This document shows, piece by piece, positions 1-5,895 of a stretch of DNA of 41,554 nt. Location: contig DUBH01000079.1 in the NCBI GenBank assembly GCA_012960415.1, positions 13,530 through 55,083 on the forward strand. Reading direction: 5' to 3'. Position numbers and translations under genes: made by a program. The DNA comes from Henriciella sp. GTDB lineage: Bacteria > Pseudomonadota > Alphaproteobacteria > Caulobacterales > Hyphomonadaceae. Below the pieces are notes generated by a model. The model ran no database searches and was not told the origin of the DNA. It saw only the letters and a list, made by a program, of their open reading frames with translations. Every line of letters begins with the position of its first letter. Within the stretch, counting starts at the first letter, position 1.

Positions 1-317
1 ACGAGATCATTCAGCAGTTGCACTGCCTCGCCGGTATGCTCATCCTCGGTTTCGCGAAGTCGGCGGAAGCGTGGCACAAGGTCAGTATGGACTGCCTCAC
101 GGCGCAACAGGGCATTCACCGATACCCCATAATGGTTCGCAAGCGCCTGAAGCTCCTGAATGCGTACCCGCCTATCCCCCTTTTCAATCGAAACGAGAGT
201 GGGGCGAGACATGCCAATTACCTTGGCTGCTTCGTCCTGACGGATTTTTGCGCTTTCGCGGGCAAGGCGAAGGCGGCGACCAATCTCCTGTGCGGTCAGC
301 TCGTTTAGATCAGCCAT
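1..317 (-). CDS. XRE-family regulator, probably fused to ImmA/IrrE peptidase (3' end cut by window)
   Basis: The visible 105 residues read in from an ATG at 317 and run off the left edge. Residues about 10-65 are a Cro/C1-type helix-turn-helix (RQDEAAKVIGMSRPTLVSIE), followed by the usual NHYGVSVNALL tail. The following segment (LVPRFRRLRE, EAVQLLND) resembles the linker that precedes the ImmA/IrrE metallopeptidase domain in XRE-ImmA fusions. The HExxH site itself would lie outside the window, so that part is inference. The start is supported by GGGAGG at 323-328. The ATG overlaps the stop of the QueC-like gene by 8 bases, so the two are translationally coupled. It probably autoregulates the operon through the palindromes near 2294-2304. 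Confidence 0.75.
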   Translation of the reverse strand, partial: MADLNELTAQEIGRRLRLARESAKIRQDEAAKVIGMSRPTLVSIEKGDRRVRIQELQALANHYGVSVNALLRREAVHTDLVPRFRRLRETEDEHTGEAVQLLNDL

Positions 318-1692
318 GGCGACCTCCCTTCGTCCATATTTGCAGAAAACTCTCTTCGCCCTGGTCCTGCTCGAATGCTGCCCATTCTTTCGAATGTTGC
401 ACGAGCATGTCCCGAAGCTGGCTCGTCACGTCATCTACTGACGATCCCAGGGCTTCAGCGATTTGGAATGCGTGAGGCTTTAGCGCGGCATCTGGCGCAC
501 TGGCGAAATCGGCCAGTTGGTGCAGGTGCCGCGCGCCCATATAGCCGTAATCGTAAAGGGTGTTGGTGGCCCTGAAACTGTTTTGCTTCGACAGGGCATC
601 ACTAAATCGCGCGGCCCGCAAATCGGCAATGGCATACTTCTCGGGCGGCTCTTCAACGCCGGCGGCGTGCAAGCTCATCCGGCGCAATAGGCACGCCGCA
701 CATACGCCGCATTGGCGCAGTTCGCCCGCGACGCGAACATTGAACCGTTGTTGCCAGCAGGAGCGGGTATCAATCACCTGCTGGGGCCTTACCCCTGGCT
801 TTGCCAGAAACGCTGCGATGGTCTGGCCCTTGGTATGCCAGAGGTGCGGTTGTTCATAGGTCAGGTCGATACCAAGCAACGCCTTTATGAAGCGCTCCAT
901 CTTTCTGAAGAAAGTCGGGTGGTTCCGATAATCTGGATAGATGTTGAGCAGGGGAAGCAATACAGGCCCCAAAGCGCCCTGACCACTTTCTGGCACAATG
1001 ATCCGGCTGACATTTGACAGTTGCGAGGCGATTGCAGTCACCGCCGCAAATTTGAAACCGCGCGAACGGGCGCTGTTCTCGGCATTCGGCTTCACCTTTA
1101 CATCAAAGGGAAGGCGGTCGAACGGCCGCTCATCCTCGCGGAGGCGTTGTTTGAATTTCGAAACCCGCACGCTCACGGCATTGTCGTTCTCATTGTAGAG
1201 ACCGGAGACACTTAGCGAGTCCAAGCCTTCACTGTACGCAATGGCGAACGCCTTTTGCTGTTTCGGGAAGAGCGGGCCTTGTCGTGGCTTACTTGTTGCC
1301 GCGCCCTGATGGCGCACAAAGCTAAAGCGCCACGCGTCACCAGTCAGGTGGCTCAGGGTATCGGAAAGACTTTGCTTAACAGCTGCATCTTGCCAGGTCG
1401 CGAGCTCAATCACGGGCACAGTCACATGAAAGTGCCGTGCCCAATGTGCATTGCCGCGTCCCCACCGACGATCGGCAAATTCGACGGCCGCGCAGACAAT
1501 CAGCAGGTCGTGGTGGATATTGCTCCAGCCCTCATGACAGTAGCTGTCAAAGATGTCCTTATCGCACTTAATCTCTGAGCCGATGGTCGCATAAATGCGC
1601 CCCTTAGCGCCTCGACGCGGAGTCGCTTGCCCCGCTTCAAGAATTGTTAGGTCACGCTCAGAAATCTTAGAAAAATCACTCATTACAATCAC
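310..1692 (-). CDS. QueC-like / QatC-like ATP-dependent enzyme
   Basis: This 460-aa protein belongs to the QueC (7-cyano-7-deazaguanine synthase) superfamily, in the form found in defence loci such as QatC. A PP-loop-like motif AIAYSEGLDSL lies at residues 150-160, with Glu155 where SGGxDS has its second Gly. IIVPESGQGALG (231-242) and NHP (257-259) resemble the PENG and THP motifs of that subgroup. C312 (TRSCW) with C328, C331 and C334 (QCGVCAACLLR) gives the Cys4 zinc site of QueC. It is about twice the length of housekeeping QueC (about 230 aa), because of a roughly 145-residue N-terminal extension. No queD, queE or queF is nearby, which argues against queuosine synthesis. The start is GTG at 1692, giving a 4-base overlap with the upstream stop, or ATG at 1683. 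Nucleotide, substrate and product are unknown. Confidence 0.8.
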   Translation of the reverse strand: MIVMSDFSKISERDLTILEAGQATPRRGAKGRIYATIGSEIKCDKDIFDSYCHEGWSNIHHDLLIVCAAVEFADRRWGRGNAHWARHFHVTVPVIELATWQDAAVKQSLSDTLSHLTGDAWRFSFVRHQGAATSKPRQGPLFPKQQKAFAIAYSEGLDSLSVSGLYNENDNAVSVRVSKFKQRLREDERPFDRLPFDVKVKPNAENSARSRGFKFAAVTAIASQLSNVSRIIVPESGQGALGPVLLPLLNIYPDYRNHPTFFRKMERFIKALLGIDLTYEQPHLWHTKGQTIAAFLAKPGVRPQQVIDTRSCWQQRFNVRVAGELRQCGVCAACLLRRMSLHAAGVEEPPEKYAIADLRAARFSDALSKQNSFRATNTLYDYGYMGARHLHQLADFASAPDAALKPHAFQIAEALGSSVDDVTSQLRDMLVQHSKEWAAFEQDQGEESFLQIWTKGGRHG

Positions 1693-2258
1693 AGTATTGG
1701 GTCATCGAGACCGGTTCTTTTTTTGGCGTCCTTCTTGAACGCATTTTTGTCGCAGCTTTTCACAGCATCCTGAATGCGCGCACGGTCGAGGCTCTTGATT
1801 ACTTGGTTCGAGCCTTCAATGAGTCGTTCGAGCTGGTCTTTATGCATCGGGCCTTCCCGGTGCGCCTCATAGCCAGCTTCCTGAATACGGGTGAGCGTCT
1901 TGCCGATATTGGTTTCGACACATGCGTCCAAGGCCTTGTCGATAGCATCGCGAGAGCTATCGCCCTCGTGCAGCCTCATGGCGACTTCACGGTGGAGGTC
2001 ATCCGAAAATTCCGACTTGTCGTACTTTTCGAAGATGCCCTTGATCGATCCCTTCGGGTCAAGATCGAGCTGCCCGTCATCACCATAGCTTTGCAGGTCG
2101 CGGATCAGTCCTTCGTTTTCTGACAGGATGCCGTTTACGATGGCATGGCTGCCAAGAGCGCAACGAGTGTCATGATCTTCAGCCTCATTCTGCACAGCTT
2201 CCGCAAACCGCCTTGAGCGGCTGTCGAGCTTCAAATTTTTGAATGGGCCATCGGTCAT
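1689..2258 (-). CDS. Hypothetical protein, first gene of QueC-like operon
   Basis: I do not recognise this 189-aa protein. It is soluble, charged and apparently helical, with no signal peptide or membrane segment. Its N-terminus is MTDGPFKNLKLDSRSRRF and its C-terminus is lysine-rich (NAFKKDAKKR). It has two cysteines in the middle and C-terminal thirds (DACVET, KSCDKN). The start is secure: a strong AAGGAGG lies just upstream of the ATG at 2258. It is the promoter-proximal gene of the operon and its stop overlaps the QueC-like start by 4 bases. That coupling suggests the two proteins work together, for example as enzyme and protein partner or substrate, but nothing in the sequence proves it. 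It does not look like QatA, QatB or QatD. Confidence 0.75.
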   Translation of the reverse strand: MTDGPFKNLKLDSRSRRFAEAVQNEAEDHDTRCALGSHAIVNGILSENEGLIRDLQSYGDDGQLDLDPKGSIKGIFEKYDKSEFSDDLHREVAMRLHEGDSSRDAIDKALDACVETNIGKTLTRIQEAGYEAHREGPMHKDQLERLIEGSNQVIKSLDRARIQDAVKSCDKNAFKKDAKKRTGLDDPIL

Positions 2259-2293: not shown

Positions 2294-2336
2294 TGACATT
2301 GTCAATAAATATAAGTCCAAAACTGACATATTGTTA
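2294..2336. promoter_or_regulatory. Candidate operators upstream of QueC-like operon
   Basis: TGACATTGTCA at 2294-2304 is a perfect 5-bp-arm palindrome. A weaker copy, TGACATATTGTTA, starts at 2324. CTGACAT recurs 30 bp apart (2293 and 2323). The AT-rich stretch between them could hold the minus-strand promoter, for example TATATTTAT. Placement just ahead of an operon encoding an XRE regulator suggests autorepression, which is inference. Confidence 0.45.
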
Positions 2337-2438: not shown

Positions 2439-2469
2439 TATAATATCCGTTATGAGCGGAGATAACGGA
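2439..2469 (+). promoter_or_regulatory. abiE promoter -10 and inverted repeat over the start codon
   Basis: A consensus TATAAT lies at 2439-2444, only 7 bases before the abiEi ATG at 2452. Transcription would therefore begin at or next to the start codon, giving a leaderless or nearly leaderless mRNA. The inverted repeat TCCGTTAT (2446-2453) and ATAACGGA (2462-2469), with an 8-base spacer, covers the start. AbiEi antitoxins are known to repress their own operon by binding inverted repeats, so this is the likely operator. No good -35 box or Shine-Dalgarno is seen. Confidence 0.5.
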
Positions 2470-3273
2470 CATAAGATAAAGAGCGTGCTTGATGCTATTC
2501 CGCCTGGGGCGCTCGTGGATTCCAAGTGGATGAGTAGGCATCAAATAGCAGACTCACTGTACCATGACTACGTACAACGTGGCTGGTTTGTCCGTCTAGC
2601 TCATGGGCTTCTTTTGAGACCTAATACCGAGTTTGATGCGAGCAAGCCGCTTGATTGGCAAGTTGTCGTTGCTTCTATGAATATGATCATGGAGATCAAT
2701 TTCCATGTAGGTGGCATAACGGCCCTAAATCAAAGTAGTCACGGACATTATCTGCCTTTGGGCGGCACGGAGCATGTGGCGCTATACGCCGAAAAGCTTC
2801 CAGGCTGGTTGTCCAAAATCAATGCAAACGCCAAATTTGAGTCACGATCACTAAAGCTTTTCAACGATCCGTATCTGGGCGTTGAGCCACTGAAGAGCAG
2901 TGGCCTCAGTTTCGGTGGAGAGGCATCCTTTCCGGTATCAAGCCCGGAGCGCGCGATCTTGGAGGCGCTCGATGAATTGCCGGAAGGTGCAGGATTTGAT
3001 CAGCTCGATATGGTGTTCCAGGGGCTTGCGAGCCTGAGTCCGCGCAAGCTCATGGCTCTTCTATCAAACTGCCGGAAGGTGAAGGTTATCCGCTTGTTCT
3101 TCGTGTTCGCGGATCGCCATGGCCATGCTTGGCTGAAACATCTCGACAAGAGCAAACTTGATTTCGGCAAAGGCGATCGTCAGTTGGTTAAAGGCGGCAA
3201 AATACACCCAACCTATCGGATAACGGTGCCGACCGAGTTTGTGACCACTGGGCAAGAGAGTGATGATGCGTGA
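2452..3273 (+). CDS. abiEi: AbiEi-family antitoxin / transcriptional repressor (type IV TA)
   Basis: This 273-aa protein resembles AbiEi antitoxins. It has an N-terminal winged-helix-like region with WMSRHQIADSLYHDYVQRGW and a VRLAHGLLLRP segment (residues about 25-62). The larger C-terminal domain has the family-like SSPERAILEALDELP (about 163-177). In type IV systems AbiEi represses the operon and counteracts AbiEii without a stable complex. The neighbour is AbiEii, overlapping by 8-14 bases, which is the standard arrangement. The start at 2452 is the first ATG after the TATAAT box; no ribosome-binding site precedes it. Base composition is lower in GC than the core genes to the right, consistent with acquisition by transfer. 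Confidence 0.85.
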   Translation: MSGDNGHKIKSVLDAIPPGALVDSKWMSRHQIADSLYHDYVQRGWFVRLAHGLLLRPNTEFDASKPLDWQVVVASMNMIMEINFHVGGITALNQSSHGHYLPLGGTEHVALYAEKLPGWLSKINANAKFESRSLKLFNDPYLGVEPLKSSGLSFGGEASFPVSSPERAILEALDELPEGAGFDQLDMVFQGLASLSPRKLMALLSNCRKVKVIRLFFVFADRHGHAWLKHLDKSKLDFGKGDRQLVKGGKIHPTYRITVPTEFVTTGQESDDA

Positions 3274-4180
3274 ACGCTACGCCGCCCAGGTCCGGTTATT
3301 GGTTCGCCTCATCCCCTTTGTGGCGGAAGAAGTAGATTTCGCCCTTAAGGGCGGTACGGCGATCAACCTCTTTTATCGCGAACTACCGCGCTATTCCGTC
3401 GATATTGATCTCATTTATCTACCGATCGAAGACCGTGCTAGGAGCCTAGCGACAATCGCATCTGGGTTGGGGCGGTTAGCGAAGAAGATCGAAAAGAGCG
3501 TTGCTGGTGCCCGCGCAACCATCGTGTCTGGCGGCGGCAATCAGGAAACGCGTATCATTGTGCAGACTCCAGAAGCTCAGGTGAAGATCGAGGTATCACC
3601 TGTCATGCGCGGCACATTGTTTCCACCAAAGCCGATGATGGTACATGCGTCAGTCGAAGAAGCGTTTGGATTTGCAGAAATGCCTGTAATCGATTTCGAA
3701 GAGCTGTTCGCAGGTAAGATCATTGCGGCACTTGATCGCTCTCACCCCCGCGATCTTTTTGACGTCCATCATCTTCTTCATGGCGAGGGAATATCAGACG
3801 CGCTCTTTCAAGCAACGCTGATCTATCTAATCAGCTCGAACAGGCCTATTCATGAATTACTCGATCCTGGTCAGATTGATCTCGGTGATATCTACGCCCG
3901 AGAATTCGAAGGGATGACCGCCAAGCCGCTGCCGTTAGAAACTCTCTATGAGGCACGCGATAGGTTGGTTTCTGAGCTACGCCGCAAATTGACTGGCGAT
4001 GCGGCCGCCTTTCTTGAAAGCGTTCACAATTGCGAACCAGATTTTGAGCTTATCGGCCTGTCCCAAGCCGCTGACTTGCCAGCCGTGCGCTGGAAGCTGC
4101 TCAATCTGGAGAAGTTCAAAACAAATGATCCAGAGCGCCATGCTGAACAGCTTCAGGAGTTGAAAGCGTTATTCTCATAG
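3266..4180 (+). CDS. abiEii: AbiEii/AbiGii-family nucleotidyltransferase toxin
   Basis: This is a DNA polymerase beta-like nucleotidyltransferase toxin of the type IV AbiE system. Numbered from the ATG at 3266, FALKGGTAINLF (residues about 26-37) is the GG-containing motif. RYSVDIDLIYLP (about 42-53) supplies the metal-binding Asp46 and Asp48. VKIEVSPVMRG and LFAGKIIAALDRSHPRDLFD are the conserved later motifs; the second contains the invariant K and the RDxxD-like segment. About 304 aa is the usual length and no domain is missing, so the toxin looks intact. GTG 3260 and ATG 3263 are alternative starts. I prefer 3266 because family members begin MRExY and AGAGAG lies just upstream. It overlaps the abiEi stop. 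Confidence 0.9.
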   Translation: MRERYAAQVRLLVRLIPFVAEEVDFALKGGTAINLFYRELPRYSVDIDLIYLPIEDRARSLATIASGLGRLAKKIEKSVAGARATIVSGGGNQETRIIVQTPEAQVKIEVSPVMRGTLFPPKPMMVHASVEEAFGFAEMPVIDFEELFAGKIIAALDRSHPRDLFDVHHLLHGEGISDALFQATLIYLISSNRPIHELLDPGQIDLGDIYAREFEGMTAKPLPLETLYEARDRLVSELRRKLTGDAAAFLESVHNCEPDFELIGLSQAADLPAVRWKLLNLEKFKTNDPERHAEQLQELKALFS

Positions 4181-4189
4181 GCGCACTGA

Positions 4190-5455
4190 TTACCGTTCCC
4201 GTTCCAGATTTCGCGACGATCGTGATTTCGCAGAGCGTTGTAGATGCTTGCGCATTTGCTCGTATCTGCGCTGCTCATCAGTAAGAGTAAGTTTCAAATC
4301 GGCCTGACGTCGATGCTGTTGCTTCTGTTCGTGGTTCAGTTCGCGGCGTTGGTCCAAGTGCTCAAAGATAAGCGCATCCAATTCGGAACGGTCGCGAACC
4401 CGGCATTGCCAAGCCTCAAATTCATTTTGCTTTTTAAGCCTACGCGTTTCGCCCCGCAGCATGTCCCAAATACCAGCGATGCCGGAGCGATAGCGGTCTT
4501 GCCGCCTTTTGGCTTCAATCAACGTGCGCTTGCGGTGCTGCTCTTGCAGCGCCTTCCTCTCCGCACTCTGCAAGCGGACAAGCTCTTTCCGTTGTTTGTC
4601 CAGAGCTTTACGTTCCAATCTCGCTTTGGCGCGCCGTTCAGCTTCCAGGCGTTGCATAGCCGGTGTCATGGCCAATGCGATCTCTGCTTTAGCCGCTTCG
4701 ACGCTCTTTAGAGGGGCAGAAGGTCCGACCTTTTCGCGAACGGCTTTCGTTTTGATACCAAGCCACTTGGGAAGTGAATAAATCTCGCACTCCCGATCTA
4801 GGACAACAACGCCGCGTCGGTCGCCCTTGGCGAGGGTGAAACCCCTTTCTTCGAGCGCTTGCACCAATGCCGACTTGGAGTCGGAAATTGCCCAGGCATC
4901 TTGCAGCGCTGATTTTATCGCTCGCGGGTCCTTCCCAATGCGCCGAGCCTGTTGCCATTCGGCGAGTGAGAAATTCTTCGGATCACGGGCGTCGCGATCA
5001 ATGAGGCCGGTGGGCAACTCCCAACCATGCTCTCTGTAGATTTCGCGGGATACGTCTCGCAGCTTTCTGTGCGAATGAGAAAGCTGGATCGCTTTCATGT
5101 TGATTGTATCGATCCGGCTCCACACAGCATGAGCATGACGACGCCCATTCTTTTCATGAAAGACGATGGCGCGAGGCTGGCCTTCCAGCCCAAGCTTTTT
5201 CTCGACTTTATCGATCGCGGCCTCAAACTCAGAAACCGCCACCAATTCCTTGTCGGGTGGATTCAGGCTCAGCGAAAACAAGAACTGTTTGCAACGCGTG
5301 CCCTTACTGATCGCCTGTGCTTCTCCAAAAGCGCCCATCAGGTCATCGGCGACGAAACCACGAAGCTCATAAAGCTCAATGTGATCGTTTTCTTCTTTCA
5401 TGAGGTGTACGGCCAGGTCTTTCGCGCCGCCGCGTTGATTGCCATTGAGGATCAT
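4190..5455 (-). CDS. Relaxase / mobilization nuclease (VirD2/MobA-like)
   Basis: This 421-aa protein is predicted to nick oriT and pilot the transferred strand. The N-terminal half is the relaxase domain. Its three-histidine metal site is seen as H100-x6-H107-x-H109 (IVFHEKNGRRHAHAVWSRID). Y29 is a candidate active-site tyrosine. From about residue 265 to the end the protein is highly charged, rich in Arg, Lys, Glu and Gln, and likely coiled-coil (for example RLEAERRAKARLERK). Its ATG overlaps the mobC stop by 4 bases (ATGA), so the pair is an operon. No coupling protein or type IV secretion gene is in the window, so the element would be mobilizable rather than self-transmissible. It is convergent with abiEii, 9 bases apart. 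Confidence 0.85.
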   Translation of the reverse strand: MILNGNQRGGAKDLAVHLMKEENDHIELYELRGFVADDLMGAFGEAQAISKGTRCKQFLFSLSLNPPDKELVAVSEFEAAIDKVEKKLGLEGQPRAIVFHEKNGRRHAHAVWSRIDTINMKAIQLSHSHRKLRDVSREIYREHGWELPTGLIDRDARDPKNFSLAEWQQARRIGKDPRAIKSALQDAWAISDSKSALVQALEERGFTLAKGDRRGVVVLDRECEIYSLPKWLGIKTKAVREKVGPSAPLKSVEAAKAEIALAMTPAMQRLEAERRAKARLERKALDKQRKELVRLQSAERKALQEQHRKRTLIEAKRRQDRYRSGIAGIWDMLRGETRRLKKQNEFEAWQCRVRDRSELDALIFEHLDQRRELNHEQKQQHRRQADLKLTLTDEQRRYEQMRKHLQRSAKSRSSRNLERER

Positions 5456-5895
5456 GACGGCCCCTCAGTGCCCGTCCGAAGCGCCCTCATGAGTTCGTCG
5501 CGCATGGTCTGTATATCAGCGCATGCGCCTGCCAGTTCAGCTTCAAGGTCAGGCCCCAAAGGCAGGGTCCCGTTGTTGATGCCTTTTGCAATCTGGTTGA
5601 GGTTGGAGGCGAGCCGTGAATTGCCCAAGATGCTCAGCGCTCTGGCTAGAGCTATACGGTCAACAGTCGGCCTACGTTGGCGTGACATTCGCGGCTCTGC
5701 ATCATCACCGAACAGGCGCTTTCTGATGTACGCACCGAGCGACTTGCCATTGGCCATGTGTTCCAGCTTTGCGCGCTCTCCAACGGTCAAACGCAGGGAG
5801 AATGGCGGTGCGGGCTTGGATTTGTCTTGTTGCGCCGCAGCGGTCTTGAAATGGGCGCTAACGCCCATCTTTGCTGCTTTCTCAAGGCCGCTCAT
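5452..5895 (-). CDS. mobC: MobC-like relaxosome accessory protein
   Basis: This 147-aa protein has the MobC layout. A basic DNA-binding N-terminal half includes a ribbon-helix-helix-like stretch (PFSLRLTVGERAKLEHMA, about 31-48) and SLGAYIRKRLFG. It is followed by the family signature LGNSRLASNLNQIAKGIN (about 90-107). MobC proteins help open oriT for the relaxase. It precedes and overlaps the relaxase gene. Its own ATG overlaps the stop of a short upstream reading frame in the same ATGA manner. Almost no space remains on its upstream side before resident genes, so the usual oriT/promoter region is missing here. Confidence 0.8.
   Translation of the reverse strand: MSGLEKAAKMGVSAHFKTAAAQQDKSKPAPPFSLRLTVGERAKLEHMANGKSLGAYIRKRLFGDDAEPRMSRQRRPTVDRIALARALSILGNSRLASNLNQIAKGINNGTLPLGPDLEAELAGACADIQTMRDELMRALRTGTEGPS

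Follow-up and report, generated by a model that had tools for sequence, protein, structure and literature searches.

What system is encoded by the operon at the left edge of a 41,554-nucleotide stretch of Henriciella sp. DNA, where a QueC-like gene stands next to a small gene that resembles nothing familiar? The window, by which we mean this whole stretch, covers positions 13530-55083 of contig DUBH01000079.1 (C79) in a genome of 3.5 Mb. According to the list of open reading frames (ORFs), its first 2.3 kb hold three overlapping ORFs, all on the minus strand, which confirms a preliminary description made from the sequence alone. From our comparative analyses, we conclude that these genes are part of a conserved four-gene system, qatB'-qatC'-xre/m78-pin. 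With moderate confidence, we interpret it as a Qat-like cassette in which QatC' modifies the N-terminus of QatB' and which further encodes a repressor-protease and a PIN effector, occurring on plasmids, here in a mobile island, and in genomes that are mainly those of Proteobacteria. Among the open-licence PMC papers listed, we recognized no description of this four-gene cassette; it may be in print elsewhere.

The existence of the cassette is supported by its recurrence. A genome collection scanned with QatC' yielded 214 relatives, 80 of which were kept as genome loci. QatB' and QatC' occur together in 80/80 of these, the relative of the 189-aa protein always directly upstream of QatC', and this pairing is therefore beyond chance. 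XRE/M78 is present in 80/80 and PIN in 78/80, and the order of the four genes is nearly constant. The profiles used to score gene content were built from plasmid cassettes of this architecture and may favor it; the loci themselves were found with QatC' alone. PIN was not matched in L029 and L068 and is cut in L051, XRE/M78 is split in L068 and cut by the contig end in L029, and breaks or splits affect QatB' in L025, L030 and L045 and QatC' in L007 and L081. On plasmids, relatives of XRE/M78 fall into 25 records at ≥46% identity and 18 records under 30%. The 25 close records are exactly the 25 that carry QatC', and PIN is found in the same 25 and in one orphan (20 of the 25 were opened; the other five share identities with opened ones). 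Correlations between the distances for the four proteins are 0.909-0.977 over 76 loci. Conserved order, plasmid co-occurrence and correlated distances combined speak for the cassette as one unit. The three genes initially described are thus conserved, as part of a unit of four that includes a PIN-like nuclease gene outside the window.

Judged by record titles, most hosts belong to Alphaproteobacteria; Paraburkholderia, Thauera, Polaromonas, Hydrocarboniphaga, Pseudomonas and metagenome-assembled genomes (MAGs) labelled Geobacter, Cyanobacteria and Latescibacterota also occur. In 385 sampled genomes of the class, QatB'-QatC'-XRE/M78 was found in three, including the window genome, and canonical qat genes in seven; loci from this sample extend only about 1 kb past QatC.

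The fourth gene lies to the left of the window. The left edge of the window coincides with a gap, ten N immediately preceding its first base. In the relative L031, XRE and M78 lie in one uninterrupted frame of 394 aa, and on this sequence evidence they are one fused gene in relatives that is broken here by the gap. The regulator had been proposed as XRE(-ImmA/IrrE), which is right as to protein type, and the suspicion that the left edge hides further genes was also correct: the M78 part and the PIN-like gene follow beyond the gap (Table 1).

Table 1. Features of the cassette and its immediate surroundings. Window position equals contig C79 position minus 13529; contig positions are marked as such.
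Feature	Position	Strand	Assignment and evidence
qatB' (189 aa)	1689-2258	-	ORF; small helical partner, N-terminus M-T-D-G-P; proposed QatC' substrate
qatC' (460 aa, GTG start)	310-1692	-	QatC-fold PP-loop enzyme; 4-nt overlap with qatB'
XRE part of the XRE-M78 fusion gene	ORF 3-317 (at least 105 aa), open at left edge	-	HTH_3 2.5e-13; 8-nt overlap with qatC'
Assembly gap, 10 N	contig C79 13520-13529		
M78 part of XRE-M78	contig C79 12525-13436, left of window	-	M78 2e-15
PIN-like gene	contig C79 11900-12571, left of window	-	overlaps M78 gene; PADLOC PDC-S70 1.1e-11
Palindrome TGACATTGTCA on TTGACA-like -35 box	2294-2304		probable operator of the XRE part
Ribosome-binding site AAGGAGG, ahead of the qatB' start codon	2264-2270	-	sequence
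AbiEi/AbiEii	2452-4180		adjoin cassette
Relaxase and NikA-like gene	4190-5895		adjoin cassette

The enzyme had been called QueC-like. This holds in that the 460-aa ORF scores 25 bits against Pfam QueC (cut-off 22), but the protein is more exactly one of QatC fold. It matches the PADLOC QatC model at 1.9e-35 and NCBIfam QatC at 130.2 bits (under the cut-off of 280), and reaches 12.7 bits against TIGR00364, the canonical QueC model, whose cut-off is 150.3; the window genome encodes a separate canonical QueC of 204 bits. As in QatC-type enzymes, a QueC core is joined to N- and C-terminal extensions and zinc cysteines. The second residue of the PP-loop is not glycine in 13 seed rows, and a Tyr-x-Asp motif is present in 80 of 81 rows, L017 being the sole exception. 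The stretch aligned with the invariant Thr278/Thr280 of QatC reads YxDYRN in the QatC' rows shown, and the QatC threonines are absent. Profile alignment places YxD on the QueC substrate motif YPDCR (probability 96.5%); without a two-residue gap in that alignment, Asp254/Arg256 rather than Tyr252/Asp254 would face the Tyr/Asp of QueC. In the tree, 12 canonical QatC rows group as a separate clade (100/92), and across a weaker branch (65/85) lies QatC'; its nearest relatives come from Erythrobacteraceae and Sphingomonadaceae. Two QatC-like frames of 620 and 639 aa (L119 in G391 and L120 in G195) cluster with canonical QatC, and canonical QatB was not detected beside them within the flank of about 1 kb examined. 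L029 is a short contig from a MAG that carries the label Candidatus Latescibacterota; its QatC' is 100% identical to that of the window, and this contig is probably mis-binned.

The 189-aa protein was rightly described as unrecognized: Pfam yielded nothing better than E 0.05, and PADLOC and NCBIfam, the NCBIfam QatB model included, nothing at E 1 or below. Outside its first residues the protein evolves quickly, relatives extending down to 14-19% identity to the window protein. Across 73 distinct rows (alignment A3), M1, D3, G4 and P5 are invariant. The start reads M[S/T]DGP in 97 of 101 rows (MSDGP 51, MTDGP 46), MVDGP in the decaying cassette of L068 and MRDGI in L017, and is missing from the broken L030 and L045; these 101 rows include near-copies (L029 repeats the window, and L009 is close to L010), L005 having been excluded as a copy. 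A Shine-Dalgarno-like core precedes the start in 93/95 relatives. Codons 3-5 vary synonymously, which places the constraint on the protein. The most informative columns are 15 (Trp; Ser in the window protein), 1, 5, 3 and 4, and in an AlphaFold2 model (pLDDT 89.9) residues 13-179 form a helical core flanked by loose ends. The C-terminus is a second conserved tail, reading [DN]xG[PVM] plus 1-4 further residues in 68/77 relatives and LDDPIL in the window protein (1689-1715). Canonical QatB starts with MGTS and has L[VIL]PSW near position 20 in 8 of 10 rows examined, seven of the ten having been trimmed by hand at MGTS. In QatB, both G2D and deletion of residues 16-22 are reported to abolish defense (PMC13279940), and the conserved start of QatB' parallels this essential MGTS. 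Modification of proteins by QueC-like defense enzymes, which the preliminary description mentioned, is indeed reported (PMC11996544; PMC13279940). That description offered the small protein as a partner or substrate of the enzyme; it is probably both, and we consider it likely that its N-terminus is what QatC' modifies.

The catalytic HExGH is present in 71/79 XRE/M78 rows, and the M78 part is best matched by the PADLOC model RmrA (9.2e-17). Among PIN-like proteins, the first acidic motif, resembling D-x-S-x-x-I-N, is kept in 77/78 and DDGE in 59/78. An orphan PIN homologue (210 bits) lies at 5031-5675 of L142, from a plasmid of Microvirga sp. VF16, where the other three genes are absent within the 10.6 kb fetched. 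Ahead of the operon, TGACNNNGTCA occurs in 73 of 90 distinct upstream regions, 72 times as TTGACNNNGTCA. The distance to the start codon downstream is 47-48 nt for 58 of 79 sites. Shuffled upstream regions, preserving base composition only, gave a mean of 0.19 matches and a maximum of 2. Most of the other 17 regions contain near-palindromes. In the window, the palindrome is the single match, with 0.52 expected by chance; a generic promoter scan did not report its -35 box. Because the operon encodes a helix-turn-helix (HTH) protein and the palindrome lies on the -35 box, there is a good chance that XRE/M78 represses its own operon.

The surroundings of the cassette in this genome look like a mobile defense island. 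The AbiE and mobilization genes noted earlier adjoin it on one side (Table 1). Past the gap, the M78 peptidase and PIN-like genes are followed on the minus strand by genes for a DrmD-like helicase, a type III methyltransferase, a restriction enzyme, KwaA, KwaB and a VirD4/TraG coupling protein; the part that immediately follows the cassette, with the type III restriction-modification genes, the DrmD-like SNF2 helicase and KwaA/KwaB, spans 2990-11781 of L004 (contig C79, left of the window). Neither queuosine genes nor a known Qat or CBASS (cyclic oligonucleotide-based antiphage signaling system) set, which the preliminary description had named as refuting, was seen among the nine left-flank proteins scanned, and ImmA/IrrE, PIN-like, type III restriction-modification, Kiwa and conjugation genes were found instead. 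Describing the island as AT-rich is valid only in relative terms, since the first 6 kb are still 47-57% G+C, compared with 57-64% in later 1-kb windows. AbiE, Lit, Shedu or restriction genes also lie near the cassette in several plasmid loci.

We propose the following working of the cassette. The XRE/M78 fusion would bind TGAC-N3-GTCA at the -35 box, a site indicated by its conservation, and keep the operon low. By analogy with CapH/CapP, DNA damage linked to infection may activate the M78 protease, so that the repressor is cut. QatC' would bind QatB' and, at the expense of ATP, join a carboxylated, nucleobase-like group to its N-terminus, Ser/Thr-Asp-Gly-Pro, presumably free once Met1 is removed; this modification step is based on the QatC fold and the N-terminal conservation. 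The QatB'C' complex might then stop phage growth, either by itself or by freeing the PIN nuclease that XRE/M78 holds, with RNA as the probable target of cleavage. An anti-phage role of the cassette appears probable, and we lean slightly towards PIN as the effector.

Several results weigh against this interpretation. Profile comparison of QatB' with QatB by hhalign gave a probability of 0.4%, and QatB was not in the fold-search listings for the QatB' model, which is uninformative as an exclusion; the likeness of the two proteins is thus one of design, homology of their cores being without support from profile or fold search. The acceptor in QatB' would be Ser/Thr and not Gly, with Arg2 in one row (L017). 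Pfam PIN was above its cut-off in one of six members tested and under it in two more, and the window genome's own PIN-like copy had no Pfam match. PADLOC matches (E 1e-10) occurred in 5 of the 30 nearest large neighbors at 15 genome loci, a figure without a background rate, and no relatives were found in viral contigs. Finally, QueC, above cut-off in 38 of 49 cassette hosts, is absent in 11 (the hosts were hand-picked, mostly isolates, of unstated completeness), so that host-made 7-carboxy-7-deazaguanine (CDG) is not always available.

This last result bears on the chemistry. It is tentatively conceivable, though we incline against it, that QatC' carries out CDG-based deazaguanylation exactly as Cap9 does, having retained a Tyr-x-Asp pocket of QueC and Cap9 that canonical QatC lost; this concerns the reaction only and is compatible with the cassette working as proposed above. 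The near-invariant YxD and its alignment on YPDCR argue for it, as does the adjacency of queC, queE and a queD-like gene in the window genome. However, YxD is kept in all 11 QueC-less hosts, its placement depends on the alignment gap, and QueE (TIGR04508) was found in 0/11 of these hosts compared with 8/9 QueC-positive ones. TIGR03365 gave weak matches in two of the 11 (39.5 and 21.1 bits; three controls 389.7, 41.2 and 21.1), so that one of the 11, Martelella, may have QueE. One of two further cassette hosts lacks QueC. Among seven hosts of canonical qatABCD, three with genomes 96-100% complete (G065, G389 and G252; loci L115, L116 and L117) have no QueC above cut-off, a result relevant to the CDG chemistry that has been proposed for QatC itself. 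Either the group added is something other than host-made CDG, or the cassettes are often carried where they are non-functional.

Other explanations concern the cassette as a whole. QatB'C' could be a minimal Qat module and XRE/M78-PIN an addiction unit that stabilizes the cassette and sets its expression from outside the mechanism. QatBC alone is reported to be able to defend, COG2856-Xre with PIN was predicted as a toxin-antitoxin in its own right (PMC2701414), and the orphan PIN homologue fits such independence. The restriction of this XRE/M78 subfamily on plasmids to records with QatC' (25/25) and the common history of all four genes speak against it, and we regard it as unlikely. A slightly less probable reading is a toxin-antitoxin triggered by a covalent N-terminal mark: QatC' would keep QatB' charged with a base-like group other than host CDG, charged QatB'C' would silence XRE/M78-PIN, and the PIN nuclease would be freed when a phage interferes with this mark or with its precursor. 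If true, it would be an immune system coupling protein N-terminal modification to a PIN toxin. Still more doubtful is a stress-response or regulatory operon unrelated to phage defense, with QatC' marking QatB' and XRE/M78-PIN slowing growth after DNA damage. IrrE-type proteins are reported to control DNA-damage responses (PMC2701414), and the weak enrichment of defense genes and the lack of relatives in viral contigs would agree; the QatC fold, the plasmid and island location and the patchy occurrence (3/385 genomes of the class) do not. Lastly, a qatABCD locus that lost qatA and qatD could have left behind an enzyme of QatC fold and, in unchanged order, its partner gene, but canonical QatA or QatD was found in 0/80 loci within at most 7 kb per side, the cassette's own architecture recurs and canonical QatC forms a separate clade, which makes such decay very improbable.

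If our favored interpretation of a Qat-like cassette with a repressor-protease and a PIN effector is true, Qat would gain a second, compact operon type beside the existing one. The cassette hints at a way of coupling modules of the Qat type to a protease-repressor and a nuclease. It is also a natural experiment on the open question of Qat, which reaction QatC catalyzes, because it combines a partner starting with Ser/Thr-Asp-Gly-Pro instead of Gly-Thr-Ser, a QueC-like Tyr-x-Asp and QueC-less hosts, which also occur among canonical Qat carriers.

Parts of the cassette resemble several known systems. PADLOC, whose models RmrA, PDC-M69A/B and PDC-S70 fit its M78 part and PIN-like gene best, does not combine them with QatC as one system, and these models lack descriptions. 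A three-component toxin-antitoxin was predicted for COG2856-Xre fusions with PIN or RelE genes (Makarova et al. 2009, PMC2701414). In the cassette, too, such a fusion gene overlaps a PIN-like gene that follows it, but its XRE/M78 subfamily is tied to QatB'C' on plasmids. CapP is reported to be activated by single-stranded DNA and to cleave the repressor CapH (PMC13373217); like CapH and CapP, the cassette pairs an HTH with an M78-type protease and carries a conserved operator on its promoter, but HTH and protease are one fused protein, encoded by the third gene of the operon rather than at its head. Type IV CBASS shares the QueC-fold enzyme (Cap9) beside a partner with a conserved N-terminus (the CD-NTase), and the Y-x-D motif. 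Pfam gave no match to its CD-NTase or Cap10 (TGT family), nor to QatA or TatD, in the 16 proteins scanned at this locus, so that, as far as scanned, the set fits neither type IV CBASS nor qatABCD, as first proposed.

The closest likeness is to qatABCD. Both have a QatC fold with two extensions and, directly upstream of the enzyme gene, a gene for a small partner whose core is helical and whose loose N-terminus is strongly conserved, the tail Trp at position 15 of the QatB' family being comparable to Trp18 of QatB. The cassette differs in having XRE/M78 and PIN genes in place of QatA and QatD, a partner start of M[ST]DGP instead of MGTS without the long Pro/Gly-rich spacer, YxD where canonical QatC has its Thr stretch, and a second PP-loop residue other than Gly. 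With four defining features tested and found absent, the cassette is not qatABCD. QatC-cluster neighborhoods are reported to contain qatA in 34.3% and qatD in 33.6% of cases (PMC13329287), so other contexts exist in that dataset, and QatBC alone can reportedly defend (PMC13279940); the QatB'C' core looks built to work like Qat.
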